DNA from: Planctomycetaceae bacterium
Lineage (GTDB): Bacteria > Planctomycetota > Planctomycetia > Planctomycetales > Planctomycetaceae
DNA length: 64,000 nucleotides
NCBI GenBank assembly: GCA_021732845.1
Contig: JAKFUF010000001.1
Location: forward strand, 124,001-188,000
Direction: 5' to 3'
This document shows, one piece after another, positions 26,194 to 37,938 of the stretch. The notes beneath the pieces were generated by a model, which did not search any database, was not told where the DNA came from, and worked only from the letters and a program-made list of their open reading frames with translations. How positions within the stretch are numbered: position 1 is the stretch's first letter; each line of letters starts with the position of its first letter. The position numbers were made by a program, and so were the translations under genes.

Positions 26194-28455
26194 TCACGAA
26201 TTCTGAGGGACGTTCCAACCGCAGTCCGATGCCATCATCCCAAGGAACCACGCCGACCGTTTGTGTTGGCCGACAATCGCCATGAATGCAGGGTAGCCTG
26301 CGGCAGTCATTCGGTCCGTGATGTTTGCAAACAGATTCAAATCATCATTGCTCGGAGCACAATCGAAACCGTCTGGATGCGAATGCCATTCGCCGATGTA
26401 CTCCAATTCGCCGGCCGTTTCAGTGCCGATGGCAGCAACGCGTTCTTCTAAGCCCTCGCACCCTCGAATGTACAAAGTGGGCTTCTCCTTACTGTCCGCA
26501 GGGGAATGGACTGTGTCCACAACATACACGGTCCTGCGCGGCAGGTCGTACATGCCGATGAGCACGCCTCCCGTCTCATTCGGCAGTCGCTCGGCACGCA
26601 ACTGCTGCAGATGATCTATGAGCCACTGGTCTGTCACCACCGTCCAGCCCCCAATCTGCGCGCGGTGTGAGGTGAAGAGCGGCACATCGACAATTGACAC
26701 TGCACATGTCGATGGATCGGCGTGCCAAACGCGGACCGCGGCGCCTTCAGACGAATAGCTCATCCGAACGGCCTGCGCCGCTATCGCGCTGTGCATGCTC
26801 ACCAAGTGGGTCGGAATCGAGAAACTCACGTCCCGGCACGACCGTGCATAGCGAGTACGTGCTTCATTCACGGCCAAGTGACCGCTGAGCGAGGGGTGGC
26901 GGATCACCGCCCGATAATACTGGGCCTCCAGTCCATCAAGCGGCATCGTTCTAATCGCGTCTTCGCGAACGCAAACAAGATCCGAACCGCGCGGATTCAG
27001 GAACAGCGATACACGACGTGCGTCACTGTGAACATCTCTCGCAAGATGCCGCGATACCGGGACCGACGCCGAGAAATCCAGAATCAACTCCGATTCTCTA
27101 AAGGCTGCGTCCACCTTTTCTTTTACTCCACCTGGCTGTAGCACGTTCGCTGGAATCGCCGTCGCTGGCTGTTCGTCCTGGAAAAACGAACTGATTGTTG
27201 CGGCGAGGACGGCGGCTTTCGGCCAGCCAATTCCGTCCGACAATAGTGCATGTCGAGCCAAGTTGTGCGGCAGCAGTTCGTCATTGTCAATGACCGTCCA
27301 ATGACCGAACCCTCCCCGCACGAGATTGAGCACGATCTGTGAACCAATCGCACCGACACCCACGGCGACCGTCTTTGCATCGACCGCATCGACACCGCTT
27401 GCTCGTGCTGCAGCCGACCGGGAGAAACTGAAGTGCGGGCGGACGACCCCGAGCGTAACGTCGGCACCCTTCAACATTTCGATCGGCGCGAGGAACGCAC
27501 CAACTTTGCCGTCACTCTTGTCCCACACGCCGATCCGTTTCCCAACCTCGTAGACTGTTTCCGTCGTCAAGAAAGCCCAGGTATCGGTAACTTCGACCGT
27601 GGCAACGTCACCCCGTTGCAGCGGAAACGCGATGACTATGATGAGGGACACGTCGAGGCACCCGTCATCCTTCCATCCCATCACGCGCTTGCGCAGTTCC
27701 ACAAGGAGATCGAATTCCTCCGTGCGGACGAATTCGCACAGTTCTTCGAGTGTCCGTGGAGCACGGCGGATGACGCCGTGATGGCGCGACCCAGCGAAAA
27801 AAAGGGACGCCGTGAACTGCAATTTCTTCGGTCGCACTTCTGGGCTCAGCGGAATCGCGATCAACGTCCCCAGGTGCTCGTCTGACGGAATTAGAACAAC
27901 ATCCAACCGAGCTGCTGCTTCGTCGGCCAATTTGATTGCCGACCAAGGAACCACAAGACTGTAGCCTGAACCTGCCACCACCTGTTCCAGCGGCTGGTCT
28001 TCGCGGTGGAGCGATCCAATTGCAGTGTCTGCGAGCCAGCGGCGAATTCGTTCGATAAACGCCGGAGCCGTCCAGCGTGCCTTCACTTCGTCCCAACTCT
28101 GGTCGTAGAGACAAAGGCTTCGAGTGTCCTCGTCGAAGGTGATGTTCAAGTGCGGAACGACGGGGAACCCTTTCCGCACGGCTAGCACTTCCGGATACGT
28201 TTCATCATCCGCCGCAAGCACCACGGCGAGCCGTTCGACCCGTCGAATGGGATTCACCACGACCTGCGGTCGTTCGACTTCAACCTCGACCACCAGAATT
28301 TCGATGGACGCACCAGCGACCTTGCGGCATTCCATAAGACGCACGAAGTCGAGCCGCCCGCCAGTAACGGCGGAGGCAATTTGGCGCGCACGCGGGATAT
28401 CGAGCGTATCAGCTTCGACAGAGTCTCCCCGCAGTTCGATGTATTCGAGAGCCAT
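26194..28455 (-). CDS. E2-E1-JAB triple fusion (bacterial ubiquitin-like conjugation/deconjugation enzyme)
   Basis: ATG 28453-28455 gives 753 residues starting MALEYIELRG; the longer frame has a low-complexity front and overlaps the MBL gene. The E2-like domain (about 1-150) has VVPHLNITFDEDTRSLCLYD, with the likely catalytic Cys at 115. The E1/ThiF domain starts near 360: AVGVGAIGSQ (nucleotide-binding glycines 366-371) and VIDNDELLPHNLARHAL. The JAB/JAMM peptidase domain is C-terminal: ETGGVLIG and EWHSHPDGFDCAPSNDD, with H691, H693, S702 and D705 intact. The three-domain order matches what I recall as the Prok-E2_A class, usually next to a metallo-beta-lactamase-fold gene, as here. The spacing to that gene is four bases. 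It probably conjugates and removes an unknown Ubl or target in an antiviral or stress operon. No Ubl gene is visible. Confidence 0.88.
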   Translation of the reverse strand: MALEYIELRGDSVEADTLDIPRARQIASAVTGGRLDFVRLMECRKVAGASIEILVVEVEVERPQVVVNPIRRVERLAVVLAADDETYPEVLAVRKGFPVVPHLNITFDEDTRSLCLYDQSWDEVKARWTAPAFIERIRRWLADTAIGSLHREDQPLEQVVAGSGYSLVVPWSAIKLADEAAARLDVVLIPSDEHLGTLIAIPLSPEVRPKKLQFTASLFFAGSRHHGVIRRAPRTLEELCEFVRTEEFDLLVELRKRVMGWKDDGCLDVSLIIVIAFPLQRGDVATVEVTDTWAFLTTETVYEVGKRIGVWDKSDGKVGAFLAPIEMLKGADVTLGVVRPHFSFSRSAAARASGVDAVDAKTVAVGVGAIGSQIVLNLVRGGFGHWTVIDNDELLPHNLARHALLSDGIGWPKAAVLAATISSFFQDEQPATAIPANVLQPGGVKEKVDAAFRESELILDFSASVPVSRHLARDVHSDARRVSLFLNPRGSDLVCVREDAIRTMPLDGLEAQYYRAVIRHPSLSGHLAVNEARTRYARSCRDVSFSIPTHLVSMHSAIAAQAVRMSYSSEGAAVRVWHADPSTCAVSIVDVPLFTSHRAQIGGWTVVTDQWLIDHLQQLRAERLPNETGGVLIGMYDLPRRTVYVVDTVHSPADSKEKPTLYIRGCEGLEERVAAIGTETAGELEYIGEWHSHPDGFDCAPSNDDLNLFANITDRMTAAGYPAFMAIVGQHKRSAWFLGMMASDCGWNVPQNS

Positions 28456-28459
28456 CGCT

Positions 28460-29593
28460 TCAGCCTGCTCGGGGTGCGGAAACGGGCGTGAGGGCGGTGG
28501 CACCGACCGACTGCGACCTTTTGACCCTCGCCTTCCGGTTGTCGACTTCGATGACGAGCGGACGAGGAGCACCCTCTCGTGGGTATTCCATCGTCACGAT
28601 GTATTCACCGTCCTTCTCACCCACGATCCGCTTGTAGTAGTTCGCGGCCTGCCGGTGGGGCGGCTGCGGGCTTTCGTCTTCATCACTCCCTTCGGTCGGA
28701 ATTGGCCAGCTCGTCGAGACGATGATGCCGCCCCGTTGAAGCTGGTCTTCAAACAACCAGGCGACGTTATCGACGGGTTCAGTCTCGTCATCGCCGCGCT
28801 CTGGCCCGAGCGTGAGGTAACTGGAGTGGTGCGGGAGTTTCCAGACATCCGCCTCCAGCCGAGCTTCATTCTTGTGGAGCTTCGTGATCGTGACGATGTC
28901 AGTCAGAGCTGTGTGATCAACGTCGGAACCGAGCATGACCTTGGTCTGGACACCAGCTACCTCCAATGTCAGTTGAACCACCAGAGAATCGCCGTTTCGG
29001 TCGATGACAGTGTTCTTGTCCTGACGCCACGCGAACGGCGAGTGCCCGAAGAATTCCGCACCGTCGACCGCAAGGGTGAAGTCTGGAGCGACCTGTCCTG
29101 CATCGGTGATAAAAGCAGAGCGCGACTCCAGCGTCAGCCGCCGGTCTTCCAGCCACTTTTTGAGCTTCGCCGGCCGTGAGAAAACCTGAATGCCGTAGCA
29201 CTTTTCCAGACGGTGTCTGGCTTCGGCCTGAATGGCCTGTGCACCAGGTTCCAGGCCAAGTCGGCTTTCCGTGATGACGTTCGCCGGCACCCACAACTCT
29301 CGGATTTTGATCCGGCCGGCCCCCTGGTATTTCTTCGCGTGGTCGAGGTAGAAGAACTCGTCGGCCTTGCACGTGTGATCGTCATCCAGATGGGTGATGG
29401 CAAGGAGATCATAATAGTCTCGCTTGACCGCATTCAGGTCGTCTCGAAGTGCCTTCGGCAGATCGATCCGCTTGTCATCGTCATCGTTAGGGTTCCGTTC
29501 GTCGGAATAGTCGAACAGTAGTTTCTTGCCATTCGCCAGATCAATGAGACAGGTGTCGGCGTTGCCGAGAGGATAGAACGTGAGCTTTGGCAT
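28460..29593 (-). CDS. ComEC-like metallo-beta-lactamase-fold hydrolase
   Basis: This 377-residue protein starts at ATG 29591-29593, with GGAG eight bases upstream. The frame extends to 29800 but that front is Arg/Ser-rich and overlaps the upstream gene. The metal site reads THLDDDHT (H68, D70, D72, H73), the H-x-D-x-D-H version of the MBL motif typical of ComEC/Rec2-type domains, and later KLPHHSS resembles their GHHGS motif. It probably hydrolyses a phosphodiester or similar bond; the substrate is unknown. It lies four bases before the E2-E1-JAB gene and after the membrane-protein gene on the same strand, so these three form an operon. Confidence 0.85.
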   Translation of the reverse strand: MPKLTFYPLGNADTCLIDLANGKKLLFDYSDERNPNDDDDKRIDLPKALRDDLNAVKRDYYDLLAITHLDDDHTCKADEFFYLDHAKKYQGAGRIKIRELWVPANVITESRLGLEPGAQAIQAEARHRLEKCYGIQVFSRPAKLKKWLEDRRLTLESRSAFITDAGQVAPDFTLAVDGAEFFGHSPFAWRQDKNTVIDRNGDSLVVQLTLEVAGVQTKVMLGSDVDHTALTDIVTITKLHKNEARLEADVWKLPHHSSYLTLGPERGDDETEPVDNVAWLFEDQLQRGGIIVSTSWPIPTEGSDEDESPQPPHRQAANYYKRIVGEKDGEYIVTMEYPREGAPRPLVIEVDNRKARVKRSQSVGATALTPVSAPRAG

Positions 29594-29621: not shown

Positions 29622-30395
29622 TTATTTCTGGTCAGCGGACTCGGGTTGCGGCTTCTTGTCGCCCGAAACGGATGGCGAATCGGGGAGCATCGCGACCCCG
29701 AACAACGACTCCGCATATCGGTCGGCGCAGCGGCGCACATATCGCGGGAGTTCCGACGCGACCAAGATCGAAGCCACGAGGACCGTCGCCGACACCGCAA
29801 GGGCCGCGTATGGTTTCAATCCGAGGTGGAACGCAATACCGCTGACAGCAAGACAGATGCCTGCGAGCGCGACCCACAGGAACCGGACCGCGTACAAGTT
29901 TCGGGCGAATCCGTACTCTTCGTTGTGAGACTGGAGAATCGCCGCGTTCGGTTTGTTGCGGAGTACATAGCGAAGTTGCCGCGTCGCCTCACCAATTGTT
30001 TGGTCAACGCTCGCCTCCGTCGCTCCTTCTGGAACCGATGCCGGGATCGTCATCCCAGTGAGGCGCTTGATCGCTCCCCGCCACTTCGACTTCTGCTGAT
30101 CCGAGCAACTCGTGTCATTCGGCCGTAACCACCGCGTGGTCGGCGAGCCTCCCCAGGAATCCCACAGGGATTCTTCGATTGCACGGCCGCGTGCGCGGGC
30201 ATAATGACCGAGGACGATGGCGGCGAGAAACTCGACGCCGACTGCTGCCCCTGCCGCCGTGTACCATGCCGAAAGTTCGTGGATCAGTGCTCCCGCCGTC
30301 AGCGCCGGTCCGATCGCGATCAACAAGCCAGGCAGAAGCCGGGCCTTGCGTTCGTAACAGTCGCTGAGAGCGAAGAATTGGAGGATGAGTCGCAT
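29622..30395 (-). CDS. Membrane protein with two pairs of TM helices, first gene of the E1/E2/JAB operon
   Basis: ATG 30393-30395 gives 257 residues (MRLILQFFALSDCYERKARL). The frame stays open to 30641, but that would run across the operator and into the divergent HTH gene. The hydrophobic pairs are near residues 20-62 (LLPGLLIAIGPALTAGAL; AAGAAVGVEFLAAIVLG) and 172-215 (VRFLWVALAGICLAVSGIAF; ALAVSATVLVASILVA), separated by a charged cytosolic-looking region, with a polar C-terminal tail. I do not recognise the family; a SLATT-like or pore-forming effector is possible. Position as the first gene with MBL and E2-E1-JAB suggests it is the membrane effector or anchor of that system. Confidence 0.68.
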   Translation of the reverse strand: MRLILQFFALSDCYERKARLLPGLLIAIGPALTAGALIHELSAWYTAAGAAVGVEFLAAIVLGHYARARGRAIEESLWDSWGGSPTTRWLRPNDTSCSDQQKSKWRGAIKRLTGMTIPASVPEGATEASVDQTIGEATRQLRYVLRNKPNAAILQSHNEEYGFARNLYAVRFLWVALAGICLAVSGIAFHLGLKPYAALAVSATVLVASILVASELPRYVRRCADRYAESLFGVAMLPDSPSVSGDKKPQPESADQK

Positions 30396-30429
30396 CGAGT
30401 TTTCGGATTGGGTGGAGTTTGGCGTATAG

Positions 30430-30479
30430 CAATAACGAACATATCTGTTCGTCACTGATGCGTCAACAATAACGAACGA
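30430..30479. promoter_or_regulatory. Operator palindrome over the promoter of the E1/E2/JAB operon
   Basis: Between the divergent start codons (30395 and 30521) lies the inverted repeat ACGAACA-TATC-TGTTCGT at 30435-30452, plus a third half-site AACGAAC at 30471-30477 following the repeated word AATAACGAAC. On the minus strand TTGACG (30466-30461) and TATGTT (30443-30438) are spaced 17 bases and form a good sigma70 promoter whose -10 lies in the palindrome. A bound repressor would block transcription. The natural candidate is the HTH protein encoded at 30521. Confidence 0.62.
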
Positions 30480-30520
30480 AGAATCTTGCTCTGGCTGACA
30501 GACCTGATACACTGGCGAAT

Positions 30521-30961: not shown

Positions 30962-31971
30962 CGCAACCGACGCGGTCTACGCAGGCACTCATCGACGAAC
31001 TTATCCGTTCGACGGGATGTCGGGACGCCCCAGAGGCCATTCGTGCCAAGGCAAAGGAACTGATTGATCTCCACGTCGCATCATTCGGTGAGCCGTCGCT
31101 TCCGATCAGCGTCGACGTGCTCGCGAGTCTTCAGGGAATCGGCCGGAGCGACGAAGCGCCCGTTCACAGTCCAGATGCGGAACTCATTCCCGACGGTCAC
31201 GGCGGTATGACCATGCGGGTGAATGCGGATCGTCCCGAGACACGGCAGCGGTTCAGCGTCGCGCATGAAATTAGCCACACGTTTTTCCCGAACTATACGT
31301 CGAAGGCATGGTGCCGCACTGATGCGCGCTATCGGGACAGGGCGAACGCCGAAGACTTCCTCGAAATGCTGTGCGACATTGGCGCTGCCGAATTACTGTT
31401 CCCGCAGCCGTGGTTCGGCCGCGATGCGGCAGTCGTCACTGATGCCACTGGCATCATCACTCTCGCATCCACGTATCATGCCTCGCGTGAAGCGGCGATC
31501 CGCCGGTATGCGGAGACTTCGCCGGAGTCGGTCGCCGCGGTGTTTTTCACCTGGAAACTGAAGCCCACGCAGAAGGGGATTGCGGGAAATCCGAACCAGA
31601 CCAATCTCTTCGGCATCAGTGCGGAAGACGCCTTGCGCGAGGCACTCCGGCTTCGAATTGAATACTCGGTCACGAGCGAATCCTTCAAAGCCGAAGGGCT
31701 CTTCCTTCCCAAGGACAAATCGGTCGAGAACGACGGCCCAATTTATCGTGCCGCATCGACCGGACTTCCGGTGGATGACCAGTGCCACCTCGACTTAGGT
31801 CAGGCGTCGGGAACGTATCGCGTGTCCGCGATCCCGCTCTGGACAGCGGAAGATCAACTCGGAGCCACAGGCGAGAATACCGTTGCCGCTCTTCTCCGTC
31901 CCGTATCAGTCCGCAGGCCGGCAAAGAAGCGCGGCGCGGGCAGTGGACCGACGTTGTTCGGTACGGATTGA
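30958..31971 (+). CDS. ImmA/IrrE-family zinc metallopeptidase (CapP-like)
   Basis: This 337-residue protein starts at ATG 30958, overlapping the HTH stop; an upstream in-frame start at 30907 lies inside that gene. The zinc site HEISH is at 103-107 (RQRFSVAHEISHTFF), with acidic residues in the following helix (LEMLCDIGAAELLFP) supplying the third ligand, as in ImmA/IrrE. The C-terminal ~150 residues form an extra domain that could sense a signal. Members of this family cleave a partner HTH repressor after phage infection or DNA damage; the coupled HTH gene is the likely substrate. Confidence 0.87.
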   Translation: MTQPTRSTQALIDELIRSTGCRDAPEAIRAKAKELIDLHVASFGEPSLPISVDVLASLQGIGRSDEAPVHSPDAELIPDGHGGMTMRVNADRPETRQRFSVAHEISHTFFPNYTSKAWCRTDARYRDRANAEDFLEMLCDIGAAELLFPQPWFGRDAAVVTDATGIITLASTYHASREAAIRRYAETSPESVAAVFFTWKLKPTQKGIAGNPNQTNLFGISAEDALREALRLRIEYSVTSESFKAEGLFLPKDKSVENDGPIYRAASTGLPVDDQCHLDLGQASGTYRVSAIPLWTAEDQLGATGENTVAALLRPVSVRRPAKKRGAGSGPTLFGTD

Positions 31972-32533: not shown

Positions 32534-33933
32534 ATGGAATCTCGCCTTTGTCCCTCAGCGCGTCAGCAAGTGAAGGTGATCCGAAAGCAGTTCCTTCAGG
32601 CGGACGAGCAGCCGTTTGAGGACTTGATCAGCGAGTCCATGGTGCAGGAGCTGCTTCCGCTTGGTATCCGTTGGAATGAGCGGTTCTATTCGCCGCTGAC
32701 GGCCTCCTGTTGTTTCTCTGGCAGTGCCTTGCCAAGTCCTCATGCCGCGAGGCGGTCGCCAAGCGGGTGGCCCAATGCGTGGCTGTCAAGCAGAAGCCGT
32801 GTTCTTATGCCACCGGCGGGTACTGTGTCGCGCGGACCAGACTGCCGGAAAACCTGTTCAAGGGGCTGGCCCGGCAGGTGGGCCGGAGGCTTCACAAGAA
32901 GGCTTTGGAAGCGTGGCTCTGGAAGGGGCGAAGGGTCAAGGTGGCCGACGGTTCGACGGTGAGCATGCGCGACACCGTGAAGAATCAGCAGGCGTATCTG
33001 CAGGGAGCCAACCAGAAAGCCGGCGTTGGGTTTTCCATCGCACGCATTCTGGTCATCTTTTCGCTGGCCGTGGGGACGGCGCCGGAGCTGGCCATCTGCC
33101 CCTGCAATGGGAAGGGGCAGAGCGAGCTGGCAATGTTCCGCCAGCTCCTCGACACGTTTGAACCCGGCGACGTGCTGCTGGCCGACCGCATGCACTGCAC
33201 ATGGTTCACCGTGACGGCGCTGATGGCACGGAAGGTGGATTTCGTGGTGCGGCTGCACTCCAGCCGCGAGTGCGACTTCCGTCGCGGCCGACGTCTGGGC
33301 AGGGACGACCACATCGTGCAGTGGACGAAGCGACGGCGACCGCAGTGGATGAGCCGGGGCGACTATGACGCCCTGCCGGCCTGCATTGAAATCCGCGAGG
33401 CGCGGCTCCGAGTCACCATTTCCGGATTTCGGGGAAAGACCCTCGTCGTGGCCACTTCGCTGCTCGACCCGGACATGCATTCGCGTCTGGAACTGACGGG
33501 TCTGTACCGCCAAAGGTGGCATGCGGAACTCAATCTGAAATCGTTGAAGGTCACTCTGGGAATGGATGTGCTCCGCTGCGAGACGCCGGAGATGGTCCGC
33601 AAGGAACTTTGGGCGAATCTGTTGAGCTACAACCTGATCCGCAGCGTGATGGCCCAGGCCGCGATGACCCACGGCCGCGTGCCACGCACGCTGAGTTTCG
33701 CCGCCTCACTCCAACTCCTCCGGGCGTTCCAACCAAAGTTGCAACAGGCGACACTTCACGAGGTTCTTCACATCGCCACGGCGCTCTTGAACGCCATCGT
33801 CCAACACCGCGTGGGTCATCGCCCCGACCGCGTGGAACCCCGAAAGCGAAATCGTCGTCCAAAACCATTCCCCCACCTCCAGCAACCACGGCAGGAGGCA
33901 AGAAAACGTTTGGTGAGAAACCCTTGTGGCTGA
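32534..33933 (+). pseudogene. IS4-type DDE transposase, disrupted by a frameshift
   Basis: The N-terminal part (from ATG 32534: VKVIRKQFLQADEQPFEDLI, ending GIRWNERFYSPLTA) and the rest (from about 32704: LLFLWQCLAKSSCREAV to 33933) are in different frames. Adding one C at about 32704 would give a continuous FYSPLTALLLFLWQ. The DDE motifs are present: VADGSTV, LLADRMHCTWF, and YRQRWHAELNLKSLK, matching the Y-R-E-K signature of IS4. The single-base deletion probably inactivates it unless the site supports slippage. I could not identify the IS ends. Confidence 0.75.
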
Positions 33934-34670: not shown

Positions 34671-35909
34671 ATGTCGACGCGCCATCGCCAGCGTGTTTGT
34701 CAGCACGCCTGTGCCAGATCAATTTCTTGCCTCCTGGAAAGGTATTCGGAATTTCTGAGTTCCCAGAGATATTCCACCCGACGTCACCGTCGCTATGTCC
34801 GGGCCGTTGAGCATTTTGGACGGTGGTTAGGACGGAGGCACATTAACAGACCGCTGATTCAGGAATTCCTCAACCAAGGACTGGCCGATTGTCAGTGCCC
34901 GGGAGTCAGCCGCGACCGGCGGTTGAATCGCGCCGCATTGAATCACTTGCTGGCGATGCTGGGACTGGATCATGAACCGCCCGTTTGTCATCGAAGTGGC
35001 CTGGTCAAGCTATTGCGGAGCTACGAAGCGCATCTAGTCAATGCGAGAGGACTGGGACCGGATACCATTCGCCGCCACTTGAAGTACACCCAAGACATGC
35101 TCTGCCGTTTCGGTATTCGGCAAGAGTCTCAGTTCAAACATTGGACGCCCGAAGCAATTGAAGAGGATGTCGCGCGGGAAGGACGCTCCGCACCAGGACG
35201 AGGGCGGAATGTTGGATGGTGTGCTCGATCGTTTCTGCGGTTTCTCCAGCAGGTAGGCCTGATAGATCGAGACCTCGCCGCCGCCGTTCCAACTGTCGCA
35301 CGCTGGCGACTGGCGTCACTGCCGACGACGCTGAGCGAAACTGAAATTGAACGTTTGGTCGAGGCAGCGGACCTGACGACAGCATCAGGTCAACGCGACC
35401 GTGCCATCGTTCTGTGCCTGAGCGAATTGGGATTACGCGGAGCGGATGTGGCGAAGTTGCAAATCGACGATGTCGATTTCACCGCCGGTGTCTTGCGGTT
35501 GAGCCAGCGGAAGGAGCGACAGGCTGACGTTTTTCCTCTGACGCCACGGTTGCGTTCGGCATTGCGTGCCTATCTTCGGAGATACCGTCCCGCTGGTGCT
35601 TCTTCTTCCGTTTTCGTTCGGCACCATGCTCCGCTGGGCAAGCCGCTCACTTCCGCCGGCATCTGCCAAGTGATTTTGCGTCTGGCGGATCAAGCCGGAT
35701 TGCGTCACCGCGTGAGTGGCCCCCATGCGCTGCGGCGCAGTCTGGCCAGCCGGATGATCAACACCGGTGCCACGCTGAAACAGATTGCCGATTTTCTGGG
35801 ACACACGTCGATCGATACCACAACGCTCTATGCCAAAGTCGATCTCACCACGCTTTCACGAGTGGCGTTGCCCTGGCCTGCGAAAGAAAGAGAGAAGGTG
35901 CGACCATGA
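34671..35909 (+). CDS. ritA: Tyrosine recombinase, first of trio (RitA-like)
   Basis: This 412-residue site-specific recombinase has a SAM-like N-terminal DNA-binding domain (about 110-200) and a catalytic domain. The catalytic residues are visible: Arg in LCLSELGLRGADVAKLQ, H-x-x-R in GPHALRRSLASRM, His in ADFLGHTS, and the nucleophile Tyr in DTTTLYAKV. GGAAAGGAGAG lies just before the ATG. Its stop overlaps the start of the second gene. Confidence 0.9.
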   Translation: MSTRHRQRVCQHACARSISCLLERYSEFLSSQRYSTRRHRRYVRAVEHFGRWLGRRHINRPLIQEFLNQGLADCQCPGVSRDRRLNRAALNHLLAMLGLDHEPPVCHRSGLVKLLRSYEAHLVNARGLGPDTIRRHLKYTQDMLCRFGIRQESQFKHWTPEAIEEDVAREGRSAPGRGRNVGWCARSFLRFLQQVGLIDRDLAAAVPTVARWRLASLPTTLSETEIERLVEAADLTTASGQRDRAIVLCLSELGLRGADVAKLQIDDVDFTAGVLRLSQRKERQADVFPLTPRLRSALRAYLRRYRPAGASSSVFVRHHAPLGKPLTSAGICQVILRLADQAGLRHRVSGPHALRRSLASRMINTGATLKQIADFLGHTSIDTTTLYAKVDLTTLSRVALPWPAKEREKVRP

Positions 35910-36859
35910 AACGCCAGACGATGGCACGCCGGGTGAAGGATTACCTGCAGTTGAGGCGGGCACTGGGTTTTCAATTGCGATCTCAGGGTGAGATGCTTTT
36001 GCAATTTGCAAGGTATCTGGATGGCGCGGGACATCGGGGTCCACTGACGACTGAAGCGGCACTGCGCTGGGCCAATCGTCCCCACTTATCGCGGAGTTCT
36101 CGCGCGAAGCGGCTGTCGGCGGTCCGCTGTTTCGCCCGGTATCTGGCAGCGAGAGACGGGCAGACGGAAGTGCCGGAGCGGTACCTTGCGCCGAAGGTCT
36201 GCTTTCGAAGAAGGCCGCATCTCTACAGCCCGAGCGACCTGGGACAATTGTTGGCTGCGACCGAGCGGCTCGGGCCTTCATATCCTTTGAAGAGGCTGGT
36301 TTACCGCACATTGTTCGGATTACTGGCATGCACTGGCTTGCGAGTTTCCGAAGCTCTGAAACTCAAGTCGGATCACGTCGATCTGCAACGTGGGATCCTG
36401 CGAATTGAACAAACGAAGTTCAAAAAATCTCGTCTGGTGCCGCTGCATCCGACGGCCACGCACGCTCTGCGCCGCTACGCGCAGGCACGCTATGGCCGCA
36501 TCGACGTGCGTGACGATAGCCCCTTCTTTGTCGACAAAAGGGGAAACCGCCTGGCGTATTGCGCAATCCGCTGGAACTTTGAAAGGTTGCGCGAAATGTT
36601 GGAGTGGAAGCAGGGCAACGGCGACATGCCTCGTCCCCGCATTCATGATTTGCGTCACACGTTTGCCTGCCAGCGGCTCCTCTCTTGGTATCGCCAGGGC
36701 CAGGATGTCCAGCACCTGATCGCCGCGCTCTCGACTTATCTCGGACACGGCAAAGTCACTGACACTTATTGGTATCTGACCAGCACACCGGAACTGCTGG
36801 CAATTGCAGGCGTCCGCTTTGAACAGTTCGCAGGCACCGGGAAAGGAGAGGACACATGA
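35906..36859 (+). CDS. ritB: Tyrosine recombinase, second of trio (RitB-like)
   Basis: This 317-residue recombinase has the catalytic Arg in ACTGLRVSEALKLKSDHV, H-x-x-R in IHDLRHTFACQRLL, His in YLGHGKVTDTYWYL, and the Tyr following it. The N-terminal core-binding domain begins MKRQTMARRVKDYLQLRRAL. Overlaps of four bases at both ends show translational coupling to the other two recombinases. Confidence 0.9.
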   Translation: MKRQTMARRVKDYLQLRRALGFQLRSQGEMLLQFARYLDGAGHRGPLTTEAALRWANRPHLSRSSRAKRLSAVRCFARYLAARDGQTEVPERYLAPKVCFRRRPHLYSPSDLGQLLAATERLGPSYPLKRLVYRTLFGLLACTGLRVSEALKLKSDHVDLQRGILRIEQTKFKKSRLVPLHPTATHALRRYAQARYGRIDVRDDSPFFVDKRGNRLAYCAIRWNFERLREMLEWKQGNGDMPRPRIHDLRHTFACQRLLSWYRQGQDVQHLIAALSTYLGHGKVTDTYWYLTSTPELLAIAGVRFEQFAGTGKGEDT

Positions 36860-37938
36860 AGACGACTAGGTCCGTCAGGTCCAAGGCGACCAGGTCCACA
36901 AAGTCGAAAGCGGACCGGCCAGCAACAAGTGTGTCGCTCGCACCGAACATTCCCCTCGGCCCGATCCTGCAGCGTTACTTCTGCGAGTATCTGGTCAGCC
37001 AGCGCAATCTGAGCCAGAACACGATTGCCAGTTACCGCGACACGTTTCGGCTGCTGCTGGAGTTCCTGAAGCTCCGGTACCGCATTTTGCCCGATCGAGT
37101 CTGCGTCGAGGATCTGGACGCGACACACGTGCTCGCATTTCTGGATGATCTGGAGCGACGGCGCGGCAACGCCGTTCGCTCGCGCAATGCCCGCCGGGCG
37201 GCGATGCGCGGCTTCCTTCGTTATGCCGCAGCGTCCGAGCCGCAACTGCTGTCAGTGGCCCAACGCGTGCTGGCCATTCCCACGAAGCGGTTTGAGCGAG
37301 CCGCGGTGGGCTACCTGACACGAAAGCAGATGCAGGCCATTCTCGACTCGCCCGATGTTGCCACCTTTTCCGGACGTCGCGACCGAGTTCTGCTTCTGCT
37401 GATGTACAACACCGGCGCGCGGGCATCGGAGATTGCGGACCTGCAGGTTCAAGATGTTTCTTTGGAATCGCGAGGCTCAGTGCGTATTCACGGAAAAGGC
37501 CGAAAGAAACGATCCATGCCGCTGTGGCAGAAGACCGTCAGACTGTTGCGTTCCTGGCTGAAGGAACTTCATGGCGTGCCGGATTCGCCCTTGCTGCCCA
37601 ATGTTCACGGCCAGCGGCTGACTCGTTACGGGATTGCCCAACGTTTGCAATACACGGTGCATCGTGCATTCTCCGACGAGCCATCACTTCAGTCGTTACG
37701 AATCTCTCCGCACCTGATTCGTCATACGACGGCGATGCACCTGCTTCAATCGGGCGTGGACCTTTCGGTGATCGCCATGTGGCTTGGCCATGAGTCGACA
37801 CAAACGACCCATCAATACCTCGATGCAGACCTGGATTCCAAAATGCGGGCACTGGCCTGTCTGGACCCGCCCCAGCGCCTAGGAACATCATCGCGCCGCC
37901 ACGACGATCGCATCGTGGAGTTCCTCAATGGTCTGTGA
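36856..37938 (+). CDS. ritC: Tyrosine recombinase, third of trio (RitC-like)
   Basis: This 360-residue recombinase has a basic N-terminal tail (TTRSVRSKATRSTKSKADR). The catalytic Arg is in YNTGARASEIADLQVQDV, H-x-x-R in SPHLIRHTTAMHLL, His in WLGHESTQTTHQYLDAD, and the Tyr there. It ends 62 bases before the right terminal repeat. Confidence 0.9.
   Translation: MKTTRSVRSKATRSTKSKADRPATSVSLAPNIPLGPILQRYFCEYLVSQRNLSQNTIASYRDTFRLLLEFLKLRYRILPDRVCVEDLDATHVLAFLDDLERRRGNAVRSRNARRAAMRGFLRYAAASEPQLLSVAQRVLAIPTKRFERAAVGYLTRKQMQAILDSPDVATFSGRRDRVLLLLMYNTGARASEIADLQVQDVSLESRGSVRIHGKGRKKRSMPLWQKTVRLLRSWLKELHGVPDSPLLPNVHGQRLTRYGIAQRLQYTVHRAFSDEPSLQSLRISPHLIRHTTAMHLLQSGVDLSVIAMWLGHESTQTTHQYLDADLDSKMRALACLDPPQRLGTSSRRHDDRIVEFLNGL

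Follow-up and report, generated by a model that had tools for sequence, protein, structure and literature searches.

According to Lau et al. 2022 (cited in PMC13373217), CapH and CapP together control associated or adjacent pathways, and the pair has already been reported with CBASS, Pycsar, and other operons, while CapW or CapHP accompanies 219 of 544 Bub ubiquitin-like operons (PMC13373217). Single-stranded DNA activates CapP, which cleaves CapH (PMC13373217; PMC10904395), and cleavage activated in the same way has been reported for PprI (PMC10904395, PMC13373217), the family M78 peptidase IrrE of Deinococcus, which cuts the repressor DdrO between Leu108 and Arg109 (PMC4374696). SinR of Bacillus subtilis, whose HTH domain is related, recognizes a 7-bp half-site, GTTCTYT, whose copies differ in number and orientation from site to site, with GTTCT-N6-AGAAC as its best site (PMC3163267), and is released by the antagonist SinI rather than by a peptidase. 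Among effectors, the 6a operon type (Iyer et al. 2006, PMC1779556), or 6A-MBL in NCBIfam, places an E2-E1-JAB protein beside a specialised MBL gene.

We analysed a 64,000-nucleotide stretch of planctomycete DNA (hereafter the window) in which an intergenic site is very probably the operator of a CapH/CapP-type switch standing before a 6A-MBL immune operon (E2-E1-JAB protein, MBL, and membrane protein), where CapH would repress, be cut, and let go. The locus resembles described CapH/CapP loci in having an XRE repressor and an M78 peptidase, matched by the PADLOC capH and capP profiles, adjoining an immune operon; it differs in that the operon is 6A-MBL and the host a planctomycete. Two things set it apart from the 6a type, a membrane protein gene at the head of the operon and putative control by CapHP; in the 6A-MBL relatives found on plasmids, unlike the window, the third gene encodes a patatin and the controller is often a different one.

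Regulator and effector genes

The divergent HTH gene is CapH/DdrO-like and the peptidase gene CapP/IrrE-like (Table 1). Specifically, i) the HTH protein matches PADLOC capH profile PDLC04142 with 59.4 bits; ii) its best PDB match by sequence, over nearly the full length, is DdrO (E 3.5e-12), DdrO also heads the Foldseek matches of the predicted CapH model, which is itself tentative by its pTM of 0.47, and the CapH N-terminal domain 7t5u is found among both the sequence and the fold matches; iii) in the same tentative model the C-terminal half is predicted to form a helix (108-116), a loop, and a second helix (127-140), as in DdrO, with F119-R120-G121 at the position of the cleavage loop, where DdrO likewise has Arg-Gly, and with F119-R120 aligned to DdrO Leu108-Arg109; and iv) the peptidase matches PF06114, PADLOC capP (77.9 bits), and IrrE. 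Cleavage of DdrO requires E, L, G, and R residues (PMC4374696), and the window CapH retains just one of these, the Gly. The start of capP overlaps the end of capH by 4 nt (ATGA), which suggests cotranscription.

The minus-strand operon is a 6A-MBL ubiquitin-like system with an added membrane protein and a putative role in defence, both the MBL and the E2-E1-JAB genes exceeding the curated NCBIfam cut-offs of the 6A-MBL anti-phage system; a literature search for "6A-MBL" found nothing. The E2-E1-JAB gene probably starts at the ATG at 28455, within a frame open from a GTG at 28572. Homologues of the membrane protein occur at loci L062 (81%), L111 (58%), and L049 (38%), and its predicted fold, a low-confidence model, gave no significant PDB match. 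Downstream of capP lie a transposase-like ORF (32710-33933) and then a row of three overlapping ORFs, tyrosine-recombinase-like and reminiscent of a recombinase-in-trio, or RIT, element (34671-37938), suggesting that the CapHP/6A-MBL module sits in a mobile region.

Table 1. Genes, promoters, and operator elements of the locus, in window coordinates
Feature	Coordinates	Strand	Remarks
E2-E1-JAB triple-module protein	26194-28455	minus	NF058523, 648 bits vs cut-off 320
6A-MBL metallo-beta-lactamase-fold protein	28460-29593	minus	NF058524, 382 bits vs cut-off 220
Membrane protein, 257 aa, first gene of operon	29622-30395	minus	no known family
Half-site element 2, GTTCGTTATTGCTATAC	30424-30440	minus	direct repeat of element 1; overlaps -10
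Palindrome ACGAACA-TATC-TGTTCGT	30435-30452	.	perfect 7-4-7; core CGAAC-N6-GTTCG
-10 of effector operon promoter, TATGTT	30443-30438	minus	relatives: TATGTT, TAAATT, TATATT
-35 of effector operon promoter, TTGACG	30466-30461	minus	aligned relatives: TTGACN or TTGAAN
Half-site element 1, GTTCGTTATTGTTGAC	30462-30477	minus	"extra half-site" of the initial annotation plus -35
Predicted capH promoter, TTGCTC-16-TACACT	30486-30513	plus	candidate
capH-like XRE repressor, 146 aa	30521-30961	plus	divergent from effector operon
capP/IrrE-like M78 metallopeptidase, 337 aa	30958-31971	plus	HEISH at residues 103-107

Architecture of the probable operator and its conservation

The initial annotation had described a palindrome covering the -10 of a promoter on the minus strand, with a further ("extra") half-site beyond it, and both are present as described. 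The effector promoter is sigma-70-like, with a 17-bp spacer (sigma-70 hexamers being assumed for the planctomycete), and the palindrome's left arm and central bases overlie its -10. The extra half-site, ACGAAC at 30472-30477, is part of a perfect direct repeat of 11 bp, CAATAACGAAC, with copies at 30430-30440 and 30467-30477, 37 bp apart. Given the SinR preference for GTTCT-N6-AGAAC, element 1 (GTTCG-TTATTG-TTGAC) may represent a strong half together with a weak half that doubles as the -35; the window half-site GTTCGYT is one base off GTTCTYT and does not make a SinR-type operator.

By itself the palindrome is only mildly unusual and is weak evidence. When the 125-bp intergenic region is dinucleotide-shuffled, 0.64% of the resulting sequences contain a 7-4-7 palindrome, and the window holds eight such palindromes; the second exact match to the palindrome pattern in the genome (C37:33111) is flanked by unrelated genes with no capH near; and a second CGAAC-N6-GTTCG within the capP coding region (30996-31011) is not conserved at L062, L063, or L064. 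The reality of the site thus rests on conservation in homologous loci. We searched 392 genomes of the phylum, 170 of the family, and 398 of the class (overlapping samples), and obtained 13 intact capH loci including the window, with CapH identities of 48-100% and a capP homologue downstream in each. Tandem half-sites, RTTCGY-(30-32)-RTTCGY (36-38 bp apart), are found at 12 of the 13 loci, against 0.03 loci expected from shuffles, and the palindrome, RCGAAY-N6-RTTCGY, at 6 of 13, against 0.02. Across four close loci (the window, L062, L063, and L064), all 15 half-site columns picked out in the initial annotation are invariant, as compared with 26 of 78 other intergenic columns (Fisher p 8e-7), while at fourfold-degenerate capH codon sites the window shares only 50-55% identity with L062 or L063.

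The form RCGAAC-N6-GTTCGY is kept at six of the seven loci with at least 61% CapH identity, so that conservation of the palindrome among the closest homologues, a check the initial annotation had proposed, bears the palindrome out. Its inner arm is absent from all six loci at 48-54% identity and from one at 77% (G759), which also lacks the first half-site. We conclude that the conserved unit is the tandem half-site pair covering the -35 and -10, the "extra half-site" belonging to its core, and that the inner arm of the palindrome is limited to one subclade. At L063 successive half-sites change orientation every 11 bp (CGAAC-N6-GTTCG-N6-CGAAC), giving both inverted arrangements, either of which may be the dimer site.

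Could the palindrome be a chance inverted repeat, with just the promoter or the tandem repeats of any consequence? Some perfect 7-bp inverted repeat (gap 0-12) occurs in 6.9% of shuffles of the intergenic region, and the inner arm is missing from 7 of the 13 loci; yet six of the seven subclade loci, two of them from other families, keep the arm, and the six bases that separate the two arms are variable. We consider this explanation improbable as a whole: chance is unlikely to explain the half-sites but may explain the inner arm, taken as a functional element.

Upstream of two distant CapH-like genes (L047 and L048, 34-37% identity), GTTCTCT-type repeats, closer to SinR half-sites, replace GTTCGY, suggesting that the GTTCGY motif is clade-specific. 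The divergent gene at L047 looks helicase-like. Another locus (L067, G412:C10) has a capH-like gene broken by an in-frame TGA and no capP detected nearby, and looks decayed. No description of the tandem GTTCGY architecture with its subclade-specific inverted half-site was found in the literature searched, a scope that leaves out Lau et al. 2022.

Proposed repression and release, and specificity of the site

On the reading we prefer, that of a CapH/CapP-type operator, CapH dimers, or perhaps higher oligomers, would bind the GTTCGYT half-sites; with elements 37 bp apart on the -35 and -10, and in the subclade a third, inverted half-site between them, bound CapH would block RNA polymerase. DNA damage or phage infection would be the trigger, and by analogy with CapHP and PprI/DdrO, CapP would probably be activated by single-stranded DNA and would cut CapH in the loop near F119-R120, detaching the dimerisation helix, whereupon the cut CapH would leave the operator and the operon would be transcribed. 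Gene identities, position, and conservation all support the claim that an operator-like site lies on the promoter of a conflict operon, beside a divergently oriented HTH gene and the ImmA-type peptidase coupled to it; the further claim of a complete derepression circuit readable from sequence was overstated, since binding, cleavage, and trigger are carried over from CapH/CapP and DdrO/PprI.

Element 1 ends 8 nt upstream of the predicted capH -35 (30486), and capH-capP may therefore be autoregulated; the predicted capH -10 lies 7 nt from the ATG in the window and 6-8 nt from it across five loci, the geometry being alike at L062, L063, L064, and L066, which predicts a leaderless capH-capP mRNA. 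The abutting position would suit a CapH that mainly autoregulates its own promoter, or that activates the effector operon instead of repressing it. We consider this alternative improbable, because the sites lie on the effector -35 and -10, a position suited to blocking polymerase, and because both CapH and DdrO have been described as repressors (PMC13373217, PMC5552922).

The tandem pair is also specific. A pattern written from seven loci, with the inner arm of the palindrome left out, matches 7 of the 170 family genomes, exactly those with an intact capH, a result circular for the sites but not for specificity; a reversed control gave no match. Over the 398 class genomes the pattern found two new places in other families, both between capH-capP and a divergent operon, one a CBASS operon (L102) and the other an SbcD/SbcC-like pair (L103), where about 0.01 chance matches would be estimated in the new genomes from the information content of the pattern; L102 carries the palindrome even though the inner arm formed no part of the search pattern. 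Among viral contigs the tandem pattern matched nowhere, and a single weak capH relative turned up. Within its own genome the tandem site is single-copy, the perfect GTTCGYTATNGTTGAC likewise occurs once, in element 1, and the region upstream of recA is without the tandem site. A wider regulon in this genome was considered and rejected on that count: whereas DdrO, the closest structural and sequence relative of CapH, governs about 20 genes through a 17-bp promoter motif, and a DdrO/IrrE-type regulon would place its motif at many DNA-repair promoters, the window shows one tandem genomic site and one adjacent operon.

The Gram-positive SOS box is CGAAC-N4-GTTCG, and the CGAAC/GTTCG half-sites resemble it, as would be expected if the palindrome were a LexA box through which the host LexA controlled the operon. 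We regard this as very improbable: the spacing here is 6, not 4; CGAAC-N6-GTTCG is absent upstream of recA and of all three LexA-domain genes in this genome; and the tandem pair, single-copy in the genome, accompanies capH across families. Nor should the palindrome act as an RNA hairpin, as it lies at or upstream of both predicted start sites and so should not be transcribed.

The controller as a possible portable cassette

Different operons stand behind the regulator at different loci: i) 6A-MBL in the window, L062, and L111; ii) CBASS HNH-SAVED effectors at L063, L064, L045/L066, L102, and L110, with a CD-NTase where the contig lets it show; iii) Pycsar at L065; iv) a patatin with a nucleotidyltransferase at L113, read from translation; and v) an SbcD-like metallophosphoesterase with an SbcC/Rad50-like ATPase behind the operator and capH-capP at L103:2471-7123, possibly a new damage-induced or immune operon. 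At L112 no recognisable effector operon was found. When the window (6A-MBL) is compared with L063 (CBASS, CapH 86%), DNA similarity breaks off shortly after the operator, but against L062, which also has 6A-MBL, it runs on; this contrast suggests exchange of operons behind a kept controller.

We lean, by a modest margin over even odds, toward a general view in which capP-capH, the divergent promoter, and the tandem operator form a portable planctomycete cassette; whose near-identical copies drive 6A-MBL, CBASS, Pycsar, or SbcCD-like operons; whose exchange junction lies just downstream of the operator; and behind whose operator any operon could be put forward, on the DNA pattern alone, as having an immune or DNA-damage-response role.

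Exchange may extend to other parts of these loci. At L111:7280-11581 (G708) a third CapHP locus has the membrane protein (58%), the MBL (65%), and a very divergent 772-aa triple-module-like protein of which tblastn recovers the JAB part only, suggesting exchange of the third gene. The 6A-MBL operons of the plasmid collection have differing controllers, namely WYL (L073, L091), HTH+ImmA (L090), and an ECF-sigma/ImmA set (L068), so the controller too seems exchangeable around the operon. In the L068 set (L068:5003-6767, Bradyrhizobium p26S5b), divergent from 6A-MBL, the place of CapHP is taken by three genes, one ECF-sigma-like, one unknown (143 aa), and one for an ImmA/IrrE peptidase; the set could work as a sigma/anti-sigma switch that the peptidase opens. 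On the Ruegeria plasmid the intergenic region between 6A-MBL and its HTH+ImmA pair (L090:4500-4720) carries its own repeated, unrelated palindromic sites of the AGTGTTTCGCAAACT type.

The present analysis contributes the operator architecture over 13 loci, shows that it can serve to find loci, and links CapHP to 6A-MBL. The site offers a testable candidate operator for a DNA-damage-type controller of immune operons, and its DNA pattern alone finds further loci and nominates new operons, such as the SbcD/SbcC-like pair, as being under the same control. The ubiquitin-like 6A-MBL system would thereby share one type of induction switch with CBASS and Pycsar, supporting the idea that toxic systems of this sort stay off until damage occurs.
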